NCBI GenBank assembly: GCA_007571275.1
Contig: RKRS01000165.1
Span: forward strand, 1 to 35,669
Length of the DNA: 35,669 nt
DNA from: Dehalococcoidia bacterium
GTDB lineage: Bacteria > Chloroflexota > Dehalococcoidia > Bin125
Reading direction: 5' to 3'
The position numbers were made by a program, and so were the translations under genes. Positions 6,367-30,289 of the stretch are shown here, in pieces. Under the pieces are notes generated by a model. The model was not told the origin of the DNA and ran no database searches. It was given only the letters and a program-made list of their open reading frames with translations. Positions within the stretch are counted from its first letter, which is position 1. Every line of letters begins with the position of its first letter.

Positions 6367-6678
6367 ATGGCAGACTCGCTGGCGCAACGCTGGATGCGCC
6401 TGATCGGCGGTCAGGGTCGGCCCACCGCTCGGCCACCGAGTGACGCCGAAGTCGCAGATACCGTCTCCCGTTATCCCGAACGCGCCGCACAGGCGCTGGT
6501 CGATCAGTCGCGTCGCCGTGGACAGGCGGCGTCTGCGAGAGAGGCGCGCGGCTGGATTAGCCAGCAGCTCGAAGAAGCTGCCGCCCTGCTCGACCAAGCG
6601 ACCCGCGAGCGCATCGGCGATTTGGCTGAGGCGCAGATCGCGAAACGATTCCCCAAGGATTCAACCGACGATGGCTGA
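6367..6678 (+). CDS. Hypothetical protein (103 aa), overlaps ileS start by 8 nt
   Basis: Complete ORF in the gap between the zinc-ribbon gene and ileS, short overlap with ileS consistent with translational coupling; no recognised family. Confidence 0.6.
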   Translation: MADSLAQRWMRLIGGQGRPTARPPSDAEVADTVSRYPERAAQALVDQSRRRGQAASAREARGWISQQLEEAAALLDQATRERIGDLAEAQIAKRFPKDSTDDG

Positions 6679-9600
6679 TTCAGCTACTGACGCTGCTACC
6701 ACTGACTCTGACCGTTCCACGCCCGCCCGTAGCGACCAACCGTTCCGCCCGGTCGGCTCGTTGATGCCGCATCGTGAACTCGAAGCGCGCATCCGAGCGT
6801 TTTGGCGCGAACGCGACATCTTCCGCCGTTCGGTCGAGGAGCGTCCCGCAGACGACATTTATTCGTTCTATGAAGGCCCCCCGACCGCAAACGGGACACC
6901 GGGCGTGCATCACGTGCTGTCGCGCGTGTTCAAGGACCTGTTCCCGCGATACCAGACGATGCGCGGCAAACGCGTGCCGCGTAAAGGGGGTTGGGACACG
7001 CACGGCCTGCCTGTCGAGATCGAGGTAGAGAAGACGCTCGGGCTGGACAGCAAGCCCGCGATCGAGAACTACGGCATCGCCGAGTTCAACCGTCATTGCC
7101 GCGAATCGGTCATGGAATACGTCGAGCAATGGGAAGACATGACCGAGCGGGTCGCGTTCTGGATCGACATGTCCGACGCGTATCGCACCTACACGCCCGA
7201 GTATGTTGAATCCTGCTGGTGGATCTTCAAGACCCTGTGGGACGCCGGGCTGATCTATGAGGCGCGACGCACCACGCCGCACTGTCCACGCTGCGAGACG
7301 TCGCTGTCCAGCCACGAACTATCGCAGGGTATGCAGGACGGCGTTCGTGACCAGGCTGTGACGGTTCGCTTCCGCGCGCACAACGATTCATTGCCCAAGC
7401 AGCTGCGCTGGTCGGGCGTGACTGATTTCCTCGCCTGGACCACAACCCCCTGGACCCTGCCGGCCAATTCTGGCCTGGCGCTGGCGGCGGATGAAACCTA
7501 CGCGGTCGTCGAGGTCGCCGATGGCGGGCGTGTCATTCTGGCCCGCGCGCTGCTCAACGCGTCGCTGGACGGCGCCGTGGAGAACCCGACCGTTGTTGGT
7601 CTGGTACAGGGATCCGAGCTGGTCGGGACCACATACGACGGTCTCTACGACCCGGATCGTTGGGGCGTCCCGGTCTATCGATTCGACGGCGCGCGGCTGG
7701 TGGAGTGGCGCGAAGCAGACGGTTCCCTGCCAGCGCGCCAGGTGGCGGCTGGTGACTTTGTCGAGATGGAGAGCGGCACCGGGATCGTCCACATCGCGCC
7801 GGCCTTCGGCGAGGACGACTATCTGCTGGGCCGCGAGGCGGGCCTGTTGTTCAGACAGCCGGTCGACCTGGGTGGAAACATGGTCGGCGACCCGCAGTCT
7901 CCCGAGGCGCCGGACTTCGTCGGCAAGTGGGTCAAGGACGCCGACCTGCTGATCATGGATGATCTGGAGTCGCGTGGATTCCTGCTGCGCAAGGACGTAT
8001 ACGAGCACACCTACCCCTATTGCTGGCGTTGCGACACCCCGTTGCTCTACTACGCCAAGCCGAGCTGGTACATCGCCACCTCGCAGGCGAAGGACGCCTT
8101 GACCCGCTCCAACGCTGAGCTGATCCACTGGCATCCAGAGCACACGGGCAGCGGACGCTACGGCGACTGGTTAGCCAACAATGTTGACTGGGCTGTCAGT
8201 CGTGAACGCTACTGGGGCACGCCGCTGCCATTCTGGCGCTGCACCGCGTGCGGGGATGTTACGTGCATTGGTTCCTTCGCCGAGCTGCGTGAACGGGCCA
8301 GGGACTTCAGTGGCGAGGAACCTGATCTGTCCGATCCGCACCGGCCGTATGTCGACGAGATTGAGATCGGCTGCGAGCGCTGCGGGGCAGCTGCCAGGCG
8401 TTGCCCCGAAGTGGCCGACGCCTGGTTCGACTCGGGCGCGATGCCCTATGCGCAGTGGCATTATCCGTTTGAGAATCAGGCCCGATTCGAGGAGCGGTTC
8501 CCGGCTGACTTCATCTGTGAGGCGGTCGATCAGACACGCGGTTGGTTCTACTCGCTACACGCTGAGGCGGCCATGTTGCACCACGCCGAGGCCGTGCCAT
8601 CTCCGACGTCATTCCGACATGTGATCTCGCTGGGGCACATCCTCGATGAGGGCGGCGAGAAGATGTCCAAGTCGAAGGGCAACGTGGTCGATCCGTGGAC
8701 CGTGCTCGATCAGAACGGCGCCGACGCCCTGCGCTGGTACTGCTATGTCGCTTCTCCGGCGGGGAATCCGCGTCGATTTTCGGAGCGTCTGGTCAGCGAG
8801 GCGCAACGCCGCTTCCTGCACACGCTCTGGAACACGTACTCCTTCTTCGTGACCTACGCCAACATCGATGGTTGGCGGCCGGCATCCAACCCGACACCGC
8901 CAACAGTTGAGCTGGATCGTTGGATCATCAGCGAATTGCAAGCGCTGATAGGCCGAGTCACTAAGGCGTTGGACGATTACGATCCGACGACGGCGGCTCG
9001 GGAGATCGATGGATTCGTCGATTCGCTGTCCAACTGGTACGTGCGTCGCAGTCGGCGGCGGTTCTGGTCATCCGCGCGCGGCGGCATCGCCGCTGACCTC
9101 GACGCCAAGCGCAGCGCCTATCAGACTCTGCATACCGTGCTCACCACCCTGGCCAAGCTGCTCGCGCCGATGACGCCATACCTGGCCGAGGACATCTGGC
9201 GCAACCTCGCCGCTGAGGTCGATGCCGAAGCGGCTGAATCGGTGCATCTTGCCGCATGGCCAGTCGCAGACGCCTCCCTGATCGATGAGGCGCTGAACCG
9301 AGACATGGCGCTGGTGCAGCGCGTGGCGTCGCTGGGCCGATCTGCGCGCAGCGCCGCCGGGATCAAGGTGCGACAACCGCTGCCGGCGGTCACCGTCGCC
9401 GTGCGTTCAGCTCAGGACGCGGAGGCAATCGAGCGACATCGCGCCACCATCGCGGAGGAACTCAACGTCAAGACGGTCAGCCTGGCCGATGCGGAAGCAG
9501 ATACTCGCCGCTACACGATCAAGCCGAATCTGCGGGTGCTCGGGCCGCGTCTCGGGGCGCAGCTGCCGGTCTTGCGATCTGCACTCAATGATCTGTCGCC

Positions 9601-10051
9601 GGAGCTGACGTCACACATTGCTCAGGCGGCGGAAGCGGGCCAATCGATCGAGATCGAAGGCATCGAGTTGCAGCCCAGCGACTTGCTGATCGAGGTCGAC
9701 ACCGAGACGGTCGCTGATGCAGCGTCGGCTGAGGACGAGCGCTGCGCCGTGCAGCTATCGACGGAGCTTACGCCAGCGCTGGTGGCCGAGGGTAAGGCGC
9801 GAGAGGTGATCAATCGGGTGCAGGGGTTGCGGCGCGACTCAGGGCTGGATCCTGATGATCGCATCGCGCTACAGATCGCCTGCGCGGATGTCGAATTGCA
9901 GACGGCGTTGACAGCGTTTGCCGGCCTGATTGCGGCGGAAACGCTGGCGACTTCAATCGCGGTCGATGGCGCCGACCAGCAACTGGCCAGGCATCAGAGC
10001 GAAGCGGAGATCGATGGCGCAGCGATGGTGCTGGCGCTCGAGCGCGCCTAA
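6671..10051 (+). CDS. ileS: Isoleucyl-tRNA synthetase, IleRS2 (eukaryote-like) type, with GXHH signature
   Basis: [71 protein letters not shown] (editing domain), [22 protein letters not shown]. ATG at 6671; the upstream ORF portion overlaps the 103-aa gene. Confidence 0.95.
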   Translation: [1126 protein letters not shown]

Positions 10052-23559: not shown

Positions 23560-23865
23560 TTAGAAGATACCCAGCTCGAACTTGGCTTCGTCCGAGCACA
23601 TCTCACGCGGGTCCCAGGGCGGCGAGAAGACGATCTCCGACTCGACAATGTCAACACCGTCGACGGTCGAGGCGGCCTGCTCGACCTGCGCCTTGATCAT
23701 CGGGCCGACGGGACAGGCCGGCGAGGTCAGCGTGAACGACACCTTGACGGTGTCCTCGGCTGGCGTCTCAACGGCGTAGACCAGGCCGAGATCGACGATA
23801 TTGATACCGATCTCGGGGTCGAAGACCGTCTTCAGCGCCTCAAGCACTTCCTGTTCGGTAGCCAT
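23560..23865 (-). CDS. sufT: MIP18/DUF59 family Fe-S assembly protein (SufT-like)
   Basis: TEQEVLEALKTVFDPEIGINIVDLGLVYAV...VKVSFTLTSPACPVGPMIKAQVEQAA; last gene of the suf cluster. Confidence 0.85.
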   Translation of the reverse strand: MATEQEVLEALKTVFDPEIGINIVDLGLVYAVETPAEDTVKVSFTLTSPACPVGPMIKAQVEQAASTVDGVDIVESEIVFSPPWDPREMCSDEAKFELGIF

Positions 23866-23896
23866 GTTCAGTCTCCTGTCCGAGAGGTGTTACCGG

Positions 23897-24406
23897 TCAC
23901 CCGCTGGTCACGCGGGTGGGAATATCGCTGTCGTCGTCGACGGCCTCGCCGGTTGCATTGGCCAACGCCTGATCGAGCACCTTCCAGGCGAGCAGCCCAC
24001 ACTTGATCCGTACCGGGAACCTGGCCACGCCCGAGAGCGCTTCCAGATCTCCCAGATCGACCGCATCGAGATCGAAGCTGTCGTCGGTCAGCATCTGCTG
24101 GACATGCTTCGACATCTCCCGCGCCGACTCAAGCGAGCGGCCGCTCATCGCCTCGGTCATCATCGAGGCCGAGCTTTGCGAGATGGAGCAGCCGCTGCCG
24201 CCGAAACCCATACCGCTCACCACGTTGTCGACAATCGCGACGGAGAGCTGAATTTCATCGCCGCAGGAGGGATTGAAGCCCTCGGCGGAGACCGTGGCGT
24301 CGTCGCGCTGTCCACGATTTCGCGGGCGTCGATAATGCTCAAGAATCACGTCACGGTAGAGATCGTCCAGATCGACGGGGTTCTGCGATTCCCGATTGCT
24401 TGCCAT
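23897..24406 (-). CDS. sufU: SufU-type Fe-S scaffold / sulfur-transfer protein
   Basis: LDDLYRDVILEHYRRPRNRG, NPSCGDEIQLSV, GFGGSGCSISQSSASMMTEAMSGR, VARFPVRIKCGLLAWKVL. Confidence 0.92.
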   Translation of the reverse strand: MASNRESQNPVDLDDLYRDVILEHYRRPRNRGQRDDATVSAEGFNPSCGDEIQLSVAIVDNVVSGMGFGGSGCSISQSSASMMTEAMSGRSLESAREMSKHVQQMLTDDSFDLDAVDLGDLEALSGVARFPVRIKCGLLAWKVLDQALANATGEAVDDDSDIPTRVTSG

Positions 24407-24425
24407 AGGTTGACTCCGCTTGGCC

Positions 24426-25670
24426 TTACCGATCAAATCCGAAGCGTTCGCCGGCCTCCAACAGGCCGTCTACCAGCGCGTCGACCTCTGAACGCTCGTT
24501 ATAGAGGTAGAAGGACGCCCGCGCGGTGGCAGGGACACCGAGCGTGCGCATCAACGGCTGCGCGCAATGATGCCCGGCGCGCACTGCAATCCCGGCCCGG
24601 TCGAGGATGGTCGCGATGTCGTGCGAATGGATGTCGCGGTAGTTGAAGGCGACGACTGCCGAGCGCTCAGCTGGATCGGACGGTCCGTAGATATCCAGAC
24701 CTTCCAGCCGTGACAACTGCTCGACCGCGTAGTGGGTCAACTCCGCGTCATGCGCTGCGATGGCGTCCATGCCGACATCGTTGAGGAACTCAAGCGCCGC
24801 GCCGAAGGCGATCACGTCGGCGATGTTCGGCGTGCCCGCCTCGAACTTGTGCGGGAGGGCGGCCCAGGACGATTCCTCGCGGGTGACCACGCTGATCATT
24901 TCTCCACCGCCGAGGAAGGGGTCGAGGTCGGCGAGTAACGCCTGGCGTCCCCAGAGCACGCCCACGCCGGTCGGGCCAAGCATCTTGTGCGCCGAGAATG
25001 CCAGGTAATCGACGCCGAGATCGTCAACGTTGACCGGGATGTGCGGAGCGCTTTGCGCGGCATCGACGATCATGGCGGCGCCGACTGAGCGTGCCATTTC
25101 AGCAATCTCGGCCACCGGCGCGACGCTGCCCAGCACGTTCGACATATGGACGATGGAGACGATTCGGGTGTTGGCGTTGATCACGGCACGCGCCGTGTCG
25201 ACATCGATCTGCTGATCGTCGTTCAGCTCGATGAAGCGCAGCGCCGCGCCAGTGCGTTGGGCCACCAGTTGCCAGGGAACGAGATTGGAATGGTGTTCGG
25301 CTGCGCTGAGCACGATCTCATCGCCCGGACGCAGGCGGTCGCCCAGCGTGTAGGCGAGCAGGTTGAGCGACTCGGTCGTATTGCGGGTGAACACGACTTC
25401 GCGGTGGCTCGCCGCGCCGATGAAGGCGGCGACCTGTTTGCGCACGCCTTCGTATGCGGCGGTCGCTTCCTCGGCCAGGGTATGCAGACCGCGATGGATG
25501 TTGGCGTTCGTGGTCGAGTAGTAGTGGCTGAGCGCATCAATCACTGACTGCGGCTTTTGCGTCGTGGCCGCATTGTCGAGGTAGACCAATGGTCGACCGT
25601 GCACCTCGCGCGCGAGGATCGGGAACTGCGCCCGGATCGCGGTGGTGTCGAGCGGCGTCAGCGTGGTCAT
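24426..25670 (-). CDS. sufS: SufS cysteine desulfurase
   Basis: YLDNAATTQKPQSVIDALSHYYSTTNANIHRGLHTLAEEAT, AFSAHKMLGPTGVGVLWG (PLP Lys), VRAGHHCAQPLM (active Cys). Confidence 0.94.
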   Translation of the reverse strand: MTTLTPLDTTAIRAQFPILAREVHGRPLVYLDNAATTQKPQSVIDALSHYYSTTNANIHRGLHTLAEEATAAYEGVRKQVAAFIGAASHREVVFTRNTTESLNLLAYTLGDRLRPGDEIVLSAAEHHSNLVPWQLVAQRTGAALRFIELNDDQQIDVDTARAVINANTRIVSIVHMSNVLGSVAPVAEIAEMARSVGAAMIVDAAQSAPHIPVNVDDLGVDYLAFSAHKMLGPTGVGVLWGRQALLADLDPFLGGGEMISVVTREESSWAALPHKFEAGTPNIADVIAFGAALEFLNDVGMDAIAAHDAELTHYAVEQLSRLEGLDIYGPSDPAERSAVVAFNYRDIHSHDIATILDRAGIAVRAGHHCAQPLMRTLGVPATARASFYLYNERSEVDALVDGLLEAGERFGFDR

Positions 25671-25680
25671 GTCAGTCAAT

Positions 25681-25995
25681 TCAGTCAATCTCGATCTGGA
25701 CGGCGCCGTCGGAGACTTGAACCGCAAAGCAGCGCACCTTACCGATGGCAGGTAGCGTCACCGCTCGGCCAGTGGTGACATCGAAGAGCGCTCCGTGACG
25801 CGGGCACTCGATGCGATCGCCGTCTAGCTCGCCCTCGCCGAGCGGACCGTCGTCGTGGGTGCAACGATTCTCGATCGCATACAGTTCACCATCGTCAACC
25901 CGGCAGAGGGCGATGCTTTGCCCATCGACCTCGACGACCCGCGCTGTGCCTGGTTCGATCTCATCCAATTGACCGACTCGCTCAAGGTGGGTCAC
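25681..25995 (-). CDS. Rieske [2Fe-2S] ferredoxin-like protein
   Basis: CTHDDGPLGEGELDGDRIECPRHGALFD: the CxH...CxxH Rieske ligands. Confidence 0.92.
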   Translation of the reverse strand: MTHLERVGQLDEIEPGTARVVEVDGQSIALCRVDDGELYAIENRCTHDDGPLGEGELDGDRIECPRHGALFDVTTGRAVTLPAIGKVRCFAVQVSDGAVQIEID

Positions 25996-27350
25996 GACAC
26001 ACCCTTCGGATCAAGCTGAATTTCGACCAGCTCGTCGATGACTTCTCGCATGTGCTCGTCAGCTACCCCGTCAGCAATCTCGGAGAGGAATCCGCGCACC
26101 ACCATCCGCTCAGCGACCCTGGGCGGAATACCGCGCGCCTGCAGATAGAAGAGCTGGTCGGGATCAACCGGGCCGACGGCGGCGGCGTGAGAGCACTTTA
26201 CGTCGTCAGCTTCGATCTCGAGCATCGGGATCGGGTCGGCGCCAGCGCCATCGTCGAGCAGCAGGTTGCGCATCGTCTGGTGCGCGTTGGTTTTCTGGCC
26301 CTCTGGCTCGATGCGGATGAGTCCATACTGCACAGCTTGCGAATCATCGGTCAGTACGCCACGAATGAGCAGATCGCTGGTCGCGCCGACGCCCTTGTGG
26401 TGCTGCGTGGTGACGTGCTCGATATGTTGCTTGCCGTCACCAACGAAGAGACCGCGGATCTCAGCGAATCCGCCGCTCTGCGACATATCCATGTCGATCC
26501 GCTGCTTGTCGAGGTCAGCGCCAAAGGCGGCGGTCGTCACGCGAATCGATGCATCGCGTCCGACCCGCCCACGCGTCGTCGAGATCGCGGCCGTCTGTCG
26601 ATGCCAGCGCTGGACGGAGGCAAACTGCAGGTGAGCGCCGTCCTGAGCGATCAGCTCGACGGAGGCGTGGATGAGTGGCGATTCGTCGAGGACAGCGCTG
26701 CGGTCGTTGGCGTCGCCGGCATCAATCAGCGAGACCTGTGATTCACGCTCGGCAACAATGAGGGTGTAGTGCCAGTGGTCGCCCTGGCTGACGTCCTGTG
26801 TAACCAGATAGAACAATGACTCGTCGACGACAACGCCACGAGGGGCGTAGACGAAGACGCCCTGGGTCCAGAGTGCGCGGCCAAAGGCGTCGTATCGATC
26901 CAGCGGCGGCCCGACGGCGCCAAGCCACTCCTGCAGCAGGCCTGGATGTTGGCGTGCGGCGACGGAGAGCGGTTGGATGATGACGCCATCGGCGGCGGCC
27001 CGTGCGGCGAGATCAGATGAGGCGACCCGGCCGTCGATCTGATGGACCAACCCGGCGTGGGCGTGGGGAGCAAAGACATGAGGCGGCGCGGTGATTTCCG
27101 CGCTATTGCCGAGCGCGGCGATCCGCCCGACTCGCGCGCGGCGGGGCAGGCGCTCTCGTGGGGTTCGACGCCAGGATTCTTCCTGTCCGGTCCACCACTC
27201 CATTCCAAGCGCATGCTCGAGGTTGGCCAGGCGGAAGGCCAACAGCCAGTCTGGCTCGCCCTTTGACCGACTCAGACTCGACACCTGAGCACGCAGGTCG
27301 TCGGGCTTGGTCTCCGCTGCAACTGGCGCGTCCAGCGCTGCCTGGATCAT
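25992..27350 (-). CDS. sufD: SufD Fe-S cluster assembly protein
   Basis: SufB/D family: HNLLL-type C-terminus (MRNLLLDDGAGADPIPMLEIEADDVKCSHAAAVGPVDPDQLFYLQARGIPPRVAERMVVRGFL). ATG 27350 has GAGGGG upstream; the ORF track extends to GTG 27371. Confidence 0.92.
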   Translation of the reverse strand: MIQAALDAPVAAETKPDDLRAQVSSLSRSKGEPDWLLAFRLANLEHALGMEWWTGQEESWRRTPRERLPRRARVGRIAALGNSAEITAPPHVFAPHAHAGLVHQIDGRVASSDLAARAAADGVIIQPLSVAARQHPGLLQEWLGAVGPPLDRYDAFGRALWTQGVFVYAPRGVVVDESLFYLVTQDVSQGDHWHYTLIVAERESQVSLIDAGDANDRSAVLDESPLIHASVELIAQDGAHLQFASVQRWHRQTAAISTTRGRVGRDASIRVTTAAFGADLDKQRIDMDMSQSGGFAEIRGLFVGDGKQHIEHVTTQHHKGVGATSDLLIRGVLTDDSQAVQYGLIRIEPEGQKTNAHQTMRNLLLDDGAGADPIPMLEIEADDVKCSHAAAVGPVDPDQLFYLQARGIPPRVAERMVVRGFLSEIADGVADEHMREVIDELVEIQLDPKGVS

Positions 27351-27409
27351 CAACCGCCCCTCACTAACCACCCAATGGCTGTTGGGCGCAATCAGCCAGC
27401 TGGCTCGGA

Positions 27410-28825
27410 CTAGCCAATCGCGCCATCCATCTGCAGTTCAATCAGCCGGTTCATCTCGACCGCGTATTCGAGCGGAAGCGACTTGATAATTGGCTCAACG
27501 AAGCCGTTAACGATCATCTTGGTCGCTTCGCCCTCCGACAGCCCACGAGCCATCAGGTAGAAGAGCTGTTCGTCGCCAACCTTGGAGACCGTCGCTTCGT
27601 GGCCGATGTCGACGCGCTTCTCGTCGATCTCCATGACCGGGTAGGTGTCGGAGCGCGAGTGCTCATCGAGCATCAGCGCGTCGCAACGGACGTTGGAGCG
27701 GCAACCGTCGGCGCCGTCGTAGACCTTGAGCAGGCCGCGGTAGGTCGAGCGGCCGCCGTCCATCGAGAGTGACTTGGAAGTGATCACGGAGGTCGTGTTC
27801 GGCGCGGCGTGGACGATCTTGGCGCCGGCGTCCTGGTGCTGCCCCTGTCCGGCGGAAGCGATCGAGAGCACTTCACCGTGTGCGCCCGGCTCCATCAGGT
27901 AGACAGCCGGGTACTTCATGGTCAGCTTGGAGCCGAGATTGCCGTCGACCCAGGTCATCACCGCGTCCTGGTAGGCGGTCGCGCGCTTGGTGACCAGGTT
28001 GTAGACGTTGTTCGACCAGTTCTGGATCGTCGTGTAGCGGACGTTGGAGCCAGCCTTACAGACGATTTCGACGACGGCCGAATGCAGCGAGTCGGACGAG
28101 TAGATCGGCGCGGTGCAGCCTTCGACGTAGTGCACCTGCGCGCCCTCGTCGGCGATGATCAGCGTGCGCTCGAACTGGCCCATGTCCTCGGAGTTGATGC
28201 GGAAGTAGGCCTGCAGCGGGATATCGACGGTGACGCCAGGCGGAACGTAGATGAACGAACCGCCTGACCAGACCGCGGTGTTCAGCGCGGCGAACTTGTT
28301 GTCGTTGGGCGGAATCACGGTCGTGAAGTATTCGCGGACCAGTTCCGGGTACTCGCGCAGCGCCTGATCGGTGCCGAGGAAGAGGACGCCCTTCTCCTCG
28401 AGGTCTTCACGGATGTTGTGGTAGACGACCTCAGAGTCGTATTGCGCGCCGACGCCGGCCAGCAGTCCCTGCTTTTCGGCTTCAGGAATGCCGAGCTTGT
28501 CGTAGGTGTCCTTGATGTAGTCGGGGACGTCATCCCAGTCCGACTCGTCGCGGTCGGTGGCGCGGACGTAGTAGTGGATGTCGTTGAAGTCGATATCGCC
28601 CAGTTCGCCGCCCCACTCGGGCATTGGTCGAGCATTGAAGTGGTCGAGCGCCTTGAGCCGCAGCTTGCGCATCCACTCGGGCTCTTCCTTAATGTCGGAG
28701 ATCGTGTTCACGACCTCGCGCGAGAGACCCTTGGGCAGCTTGACCAGCGCCTCAACGTCGTCGTGGAAGCCGTACTCGTACTCGCTCCGGCGAGTGACCG
28801 GCGCGTCTGATGCGGGGGTGGTCAT
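27410..28825 (-). CDS. sufB: SufB Fe-S cluster assembly scaffold
   Basis: [86 protein letters not shown]. Confidence 0.96.
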
Positions 28826-29592
28826 GAGCTCAGCGCCCTTTCTCTGGTTCGTTCCATGAACGGTTCGTAGCCGCCACGCTCGAGCCGCTCGGCCAAACTG
28901 GCGTCGCCTGATTCCACAATGCGTCCATCAATCAGGACGTGAACATGGTCGGGCTGTACGTAGCGCAGAATCCGCTGGTAGTGAGTGATCAGCAGGATCG
29001 CGTTGTCATCGGAATGGAACGTGTTGATCCCTTCGCTGACAATCCGCAAGGCGTCGATGTCGAGGCCGGAGTCGGTCTCGTCCATCACGGCGACGAGCGG
29101 CTGGAGCAAGCCCAGCTGCAGGATTTCGGCGCGCTTCTTCTCACCACCGGAGAAGCCGTCGTTGACGTAGCGACGGACAAACTGCTCATCCATCTGCAGC
29201 CGACCGAGGACCTGATTCAATACTTGGCGGAACTCGCGCACGGGAATCTCTTCACCGCGCCGCGCGGTCATCGCCCGGCGCAGGAAGTTAATCATCGAGA
29301 CGCCGGGAATATCGGTCGGGTACTGAAAGGCGAGGAACAGCCCGGCGCGAGCGCGCTCGTCGGGCGCCAGCTCGATCACGCTCTCGCCAGCGAGGCGGAT
29401 ATCCCCGCCGTTGACGGTGTAACGCGGGTGCCCCATCAGTGCGTTGGCCAGTGTGCTCTTGCCCGAGCCGTTGGGCCCCATGATCGCGTGCACTTCACCA
29501 GGTCGGAGGGTCAGTGACAGGCCATTGACGATCTGTTTGTCCTCTACAGCGACCTGCAGCGCGTCAATCTCGAATAGTGGCGGCGGTGTCAT
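28822..29592 (-). CDS. sufC: SufC ATPase
   Basis: [89 protein letters not shown]. Confidence 0.96.
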
Positions 29593-29641
29593 TCACCGTC
29601 TTCCTTTGCTTGTGCTCAACGTTAGTGGCCGCGAAGCGCCA

Positions 29642-30289
29642 CTAGACGGCCTGTTTGAATTCGGCGTCGAGCGAGATCGGGTGTAGCGGGACGACATAGA
29701 CGCAACCGTCATCGCCCTCGGCGAGACGCAGCGTCTGCTCAACTTCGACACCCAGTAGTTTCTCGATCACCAACCGATCGGCATCGCAGACGCAGGAACT
29801 CGTCGTCGCGGCGCCCAGATACGGACACGCGTTGTTGACCAGTCTGAGCTCGTTGTCGGTGCGTTGCCAGTGATCCAGAATGCCTTCCGGGCGCAAGGCG
29901 TCGACCACGGCGTCGACGCGCTGCTCGAGCGATCCATCGGGGACTTCCGCGCGGTGCGCGTCGGCGACCTGGTCAGCCAAGGCTTCCGACAGGGCAGACT
30001 GCTCGACCTGTAATCGGGTGATCTCGGTAAGCAGGCGCTCCGCCAGCTCGGGCGTGTGGTCACGCACCGCTCTGACGCCGGCGTCAGTCGCACGGTAGAG
30101 GTACGAGGGACGCCCGGGCCCACGCCGCAGCGCCTCGATCCGCAGCAATCCCTCAGCCTCGAGGCGATCGAGGTGTCGTCGCACCGTGGCGTCGGAAATG
30201 TCGAGTTCGTCGGATAGCTGCGCAACGGTGGCGCCGCCAAGCTCTACAACACGCTCGAGCAGACTTGTTCGAGTTTCTCGTGGTCGCAT
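29642..30289 (-). CDS. sufR: SufR-like transcriptional regulator
   Basis: wHTH N-terminus (TRTSLLERVVELGGATVAQLSDELDISDATVRRHLDRLEAEGLLR), C-terminal Cys motif NNACPYLGAATTSSCVCDADRLVIEKLLG; sits at the head of the suf operon. Confidence 0.88.
   Translation of the reverse strand: MRPRETRTSLLERVVELGGATVAQLSDELDISDATVRRHLDRLEAEGLLRIEALRRGPGRPSYLYRATDAGVRAVRDHTPELAERLLTEITRLQVEQSALSEALADQVADAHRAEVPDGSLEQRVDAVVDALRPEGILDHWQRTDNELRLVNNACPYLGAATTSSCVCDADRLVIEKLLGVEVEQTLRLAEGDDGCVYVVPLHPISLDAEFKQAV

Follow-up and report, generated by a model that had tools for sequence, protein, structure and literature searches.

An exchange within the most conserved signature of class I synthetases, from HXGH to G/AXHH, is biochemically striking and has been described and explained for type 2 isoleucyl-tRNA synthetases (IleRS2) by Brkic et al. 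(2023, Nat Commun 14:5498; PMC10485003). Among the 163 prokaryotic IleRS2 of their set, 86 have the variant, which no IleRS1 shows. With HVGH in place of ALHH, Deinococcus radiodurans IleRS2 (DrIleRS2) has a mupirocin Ki of 8.1 instead of 6600 µM, and the reverse change from HVGH to GVHH raises it from 0.20 to 35 µM in Thermus thermophilus IleRS2 (TtIleRS2) and from 1.08 to 460 µM in Priestia megaterium IleRS2 (PmIleRS2). The swaps thus shift Ki about 170- to 820-fold in the two directions, with catalysis only mildly lower, and enzymes bearing the variant range from 35 µM (TtIleRS2 mutant) to 6.6 mM (DrIleRS2). IleRS2 structures reveal a shifted tip of helix α1 that allows the third His to substitute for the first, and modelling indicates that the third-position His clashes with mupirocin; antibiotic selection was proposed as the cause of G/AXHH (PMC10485003). 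We found no further paper using the term GXHH for IleRS in our literature search.

The window analyzed here is a 35,669-nucleotide stretch of DNA from a Dehalococcoidia bacterium. A first-pass annotation had located in it a type 2 IleRS with GVHH in place of HXGH and an intact KMSKS motif, and had stated that GXHH variants have been described as hyper-resistant. The relevant features are as follows.

6671..10051, + strand: ileS, type 2 isoleucyl-tRNA synthetase (IleRS2), 1126 aa (TIGR00392, Pfam domains, PDB match, start/stop check)
6902..6913, + strand: GVHH in place of HXGH, residues 78-81 (in-frame codons, ungapped alignments, conservation)
7130..7132, + strand: Trp154, aligns with PmIleRS2 Trp130 near the HIGH motif (alignment; position from residue number)
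8636..8638, + strand: His656, aligns with PmIleRS2 His582 (alignment; position from residue number)
8660..8674, + strand: KMSKS motif, canonical, residues 664-668 (translation)

The ileS reading frame is complete, running on the + strand from ATG 6671-6673 to TAA 10049-10051 (1126 residues). The ATG at 6671 is the most likely start, not the GTG at 6440 of the mechanical ORF call, and overlaps the 3' end of ORF 6367-6678 by 8 bases. This short ORF and a zinc-ribbon ORF lie 5' of ileS, and a BrkB-family gene follows 3' on the opposite strand. Elsewhere in the window (23560-30289, - strand), the ORF translations suggest a run of Suf iron-sulfur cluster genes, apparently comprising a SufC-like ATPase, SufB- and SufD-like proteins, a Rieske-like ferredoxin, a SufS-like cysteine desulfurase, a SufU-like scaffold, a DUF59-like ORF, and a putative SufR-like regulator at 29642-30289.

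The assignment to type 2 is borne out by comparison with known structures. The best PDB match (phmmer) is 8C8W, an engineered GVHH mutant of PmIleRS2 (888.4 bits, E 7.7e-266), and wild-type PmIleRS2 (8C8U, 881.9 bits; 8C8V, 881.1 bits) and T. thermophilus IleRS2 (867 bits) score similarly, whereas the best IleRS1 match, the Staphylococcus aureus enzyme, reaches 311 bits. TIGR00392 (NCBIfam) is matched at 859.5 bits against a cut-off of 621.4. The Pfam domains are tRNA-synt_1, Anticodon_1, and DUF5915, the latter two forming the C-terminal arrangement of IleRS2; the IleRS1 zinc finger (zf-FPG_IleRS) gives no Pfam match, and no CxxC is found after residue 571.

Positions 6902-6913 read GGC GTG CAT CAC and encode Gly-Val-His-His in frame with ileS. 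In the phmmer alignment this tetrapeptide pairs gap-free with PmIleRS2 residues 54-57, which are GVHH in engineered 8C8W and HVGH in wild-type 8C8U and 8C8V (motif region, all gap-free: window, EGPPTANGTPGVHHVLSR; mutant, EGPPTANGLPGVHHALGR; wild type, EGPPTANGLPHVGHALGR). The mafft alignment likewise puts Gly at position 1 and His at position 3 of the HXGH column. Scanning the whole 1126-aa protein for H.GH returned none, and KMSKS is intact, so that both signature readings of the first-pass annotation stand. The Trp154 column holds Trp in 81/81 class type-A sequences that cover it, and the position of PmIleRS2 His582, the counterpart of His656, corresponds to the mupirocin-stacking Phe586 in IleRS1 (PMC10485003).

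We mapped the motif across the class using 82 full-length type-A IleRS2 (the window enzyme and sampled Dehalococcoidia relatives), two of which do not cover it. GXHH is present in 78 of the 80 remaining sequences (GIHH 41, GVHH 34, GLHH 3), and the other two read HYGH; three further class genes are distant type B IleRS2 with GVHH or AVHH. Gly at position 1 and His at position 3 recur in 14/14 same-genus genomes, and GXHH in 18/18 genomes of the same genus or family that gave a match. A chance change or read error in GVHH is ruled out because the motif is conserved to this extent in genus and class. In a quick tree of the IleRS catalytic core, calculated with the motif columns omitted and weakly supported in its deep branches, the window IleRS groups with its genus, a 52-row clade of mostly Dehalococcoidia genes (SH-aLRT 98) is GXHH throughout, and no reversion to HXGH is seen within the Dehalococcoidia clade.

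The closest named matches to the window IleRS are Dehalococcoidia and Chloroflexi MAGs. GXHH is found in 77 of the 79 named relatives extracted, which are the matches nearest a GXHH query and hence no census; its bearers span Anaerolineae, Bacteroidota, Gemmatimonadota, Caldisericota, Firmicutes, and others. A DNA-pattern scan for GXHH gave 127/301, a rough lower bound that missed type-B genes and includes a few chance matches. The corresponding HXGH scan is poorly informative, as most of its matches are other class I synthetases (GlnRS/GluRS-like PEPNGYLHIGH, MetRS-like PYANGPRHIGH). The first-pass annotation is weak in taking the motif for a notable feature of this organism: GXHH is ordinary both among Dehalococcoidia and across much of bacterial IleRS2. 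It is an inherited, class-wide trait from an old IleRS2 lineage rather than a recent adaptation, and this breadth makes it uninformative on the organism's own exposure to mupirocin.

The usual class gene appears to be replaced in a few Dehalococcoidia families. Two loci of family f15 (L086, L087) carry an IleRS2 with HYGH and KLSKK from a distant clade, and loci of families f36, f50, and f17 (L082, L083, L085) carry type B IleRS2. Gene replacement is likelier than reversion here, within the limits of the weakly supported deep branches of the tree, because both the HYGH and the type-B genes belong to distant IleRS2 clades. One genome (G211; loci L156, L185) has two different IleRS2 genes, one of type A (GIHH) and one of type B (GVHH).

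A second, distant Chloroflexota IleRS2 clade has both class I signatures non-canonical in one enzyme (L164, L168, L082, L083, L085, L174, L177, L179, L185, and other Chloroflexota). Its members read GVHH, AVHH, or GIHH, and in 42 of 43 sequences the KMSKS loop is altered as well, to xMHKS/xMHRS/xFHKS (EMHKS, PMHKS, etc.), with loss of the first Lys and gain of a His. The literature we searched holds no mention of MHKS together with isoleucyl. This clade is a loose thread of more interest than the window enzyme and may deserve attention. Loci L158-L160 (G165, G119, G172) encode IleRS2 with ATHH together with KQSKS, KSSKS, or KASKS, and GSHH is found in L095 and L104; Thr and Ser thus join the residues already published for the X position (I/V/L/M/Y).

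By analogy with the swapped enzymes, His80 in the window IleRS would stand in catalytically for the first histidine of HIGH. The same side chain would clash sterically with bound mupirocin and exclude the inhibitor, so that the enzyme should be hyper-resistant, with a Ki in the high micromolar to millimolar range and near-normal activity. The mupirocin-insensitive enzyme proposed by the first-pass annotation is, on the published motif swaps (PMC10485003), the correct prediction. Its assumption of a non-producer lineage is consistent with our search of the genome (88% complete) for one family, PF14765 polyketide dehydratase domains, which returned none. It is very probable that, jointly, ileS encodes a sole housekeeping IleRS2 with G/AXHH, that His80 replaces the first His, that the enzyme is hyper-resistant to mupirocin, and that the motif is inherited. 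Dehalococcoidia are then predicted to tolerate mupirocin, for example in selective enrichment.

Why the motif exists is a separate question, compatible with this identification of the enzyme. What fixed and maintained GXHH may have been something other than mupirocin, catalytic or ecological, such as altered handling of ATP or adenylate, a different inhibitor that mimics the adenylate, or neutral lock-in, with hyper-resistance as a by-product. The motif is near-universal in a class of many families and recurs in Anaerolineae, Bacteroidota, Gemmatimonadota, Caldisericota, and Firmicutes lineages, and a spread this wide would seem much to attribute to selection by a single producer species. We nevertheless regard such an origin as possible but on the unlikely side, given that Brkic et al. 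favor antibiotic selection and that catalysis changes only mildly or is slightly impaired, which leaves no other known benefit (PMC10485003). Were GXHH an older, fixed active-site solution with hyper-resistance as its side effect, the evolutionary argument would be reversed in direction.

A typical class I enzyme would be crippled if it lacked the first His (PMC10485003). GVHH could in principle be a HIGH motif in decay, in a paralogue that is catalytically impaired or moonlights while another gene encodes the real IleRS. The window IleRS is the only one found in its genome (2.47 Mb, 88% complete), in which no second or canonical IleRS was detected; of the other matches tested, those assigned to a family are ValRS and MetRS, and a fragment (C108) matched no family. 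The protein is also full length with KMSKS intact, its motif is conserved class-wide, which rules out decay, and the naturally non-canonical DrIleRS2 is fully active (PMC10485003). A paralogue of this kind is highly improbable, and the sole housekeeping enzyme remains the preferred reading. Horizontal uptake of an acquired MupA/MupB-type resistance gene is more improbable still, since the NF000257 and NF000258 matches, although strong in E value (1e-237 and 1e-232), lie at 791 and 775 bits far under the 1900-bit cut-offs, ileS clusters with its own genus and class in the tree, and the genome is without a second IleRS; membership in these families is ruled out by the NCBIfam exception cut-offs and the tree.

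MupA and MupB, the plasmid-borne IleRS2 of staphylococci, share the IleRS2 superfamily with the window enzyme, but the latter is encoded by a chromosomal sole copy that scores far under their family cut-offs. The window IleRS is a further case of the G/AXHH variant published in 2023, and the motif is not new. Like D. radiodurans IleRS2 (ALHH) and Streptomyces griseus IleRS2 (GXHH), it is a type 2 housekeeping enzyme with Gly or Ala at position 1 and His at position 3; it differs in coming from Dehalococcoidia, and few Chloroflexota sequences were noted as available in PMC10485003. It adds a well-sampled class with a near-universal swap, useful for asking whether antibiotic pressure suffices. 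The PmIleRS2 mutant 8C8W has the identical GVHH in the same column, with Trp130 and His582 matching Trp154 and His656, but was engineered from an HVGH enzyme, whereas GVHH in the window IleRS is natural and its GXHH signature class-wide.
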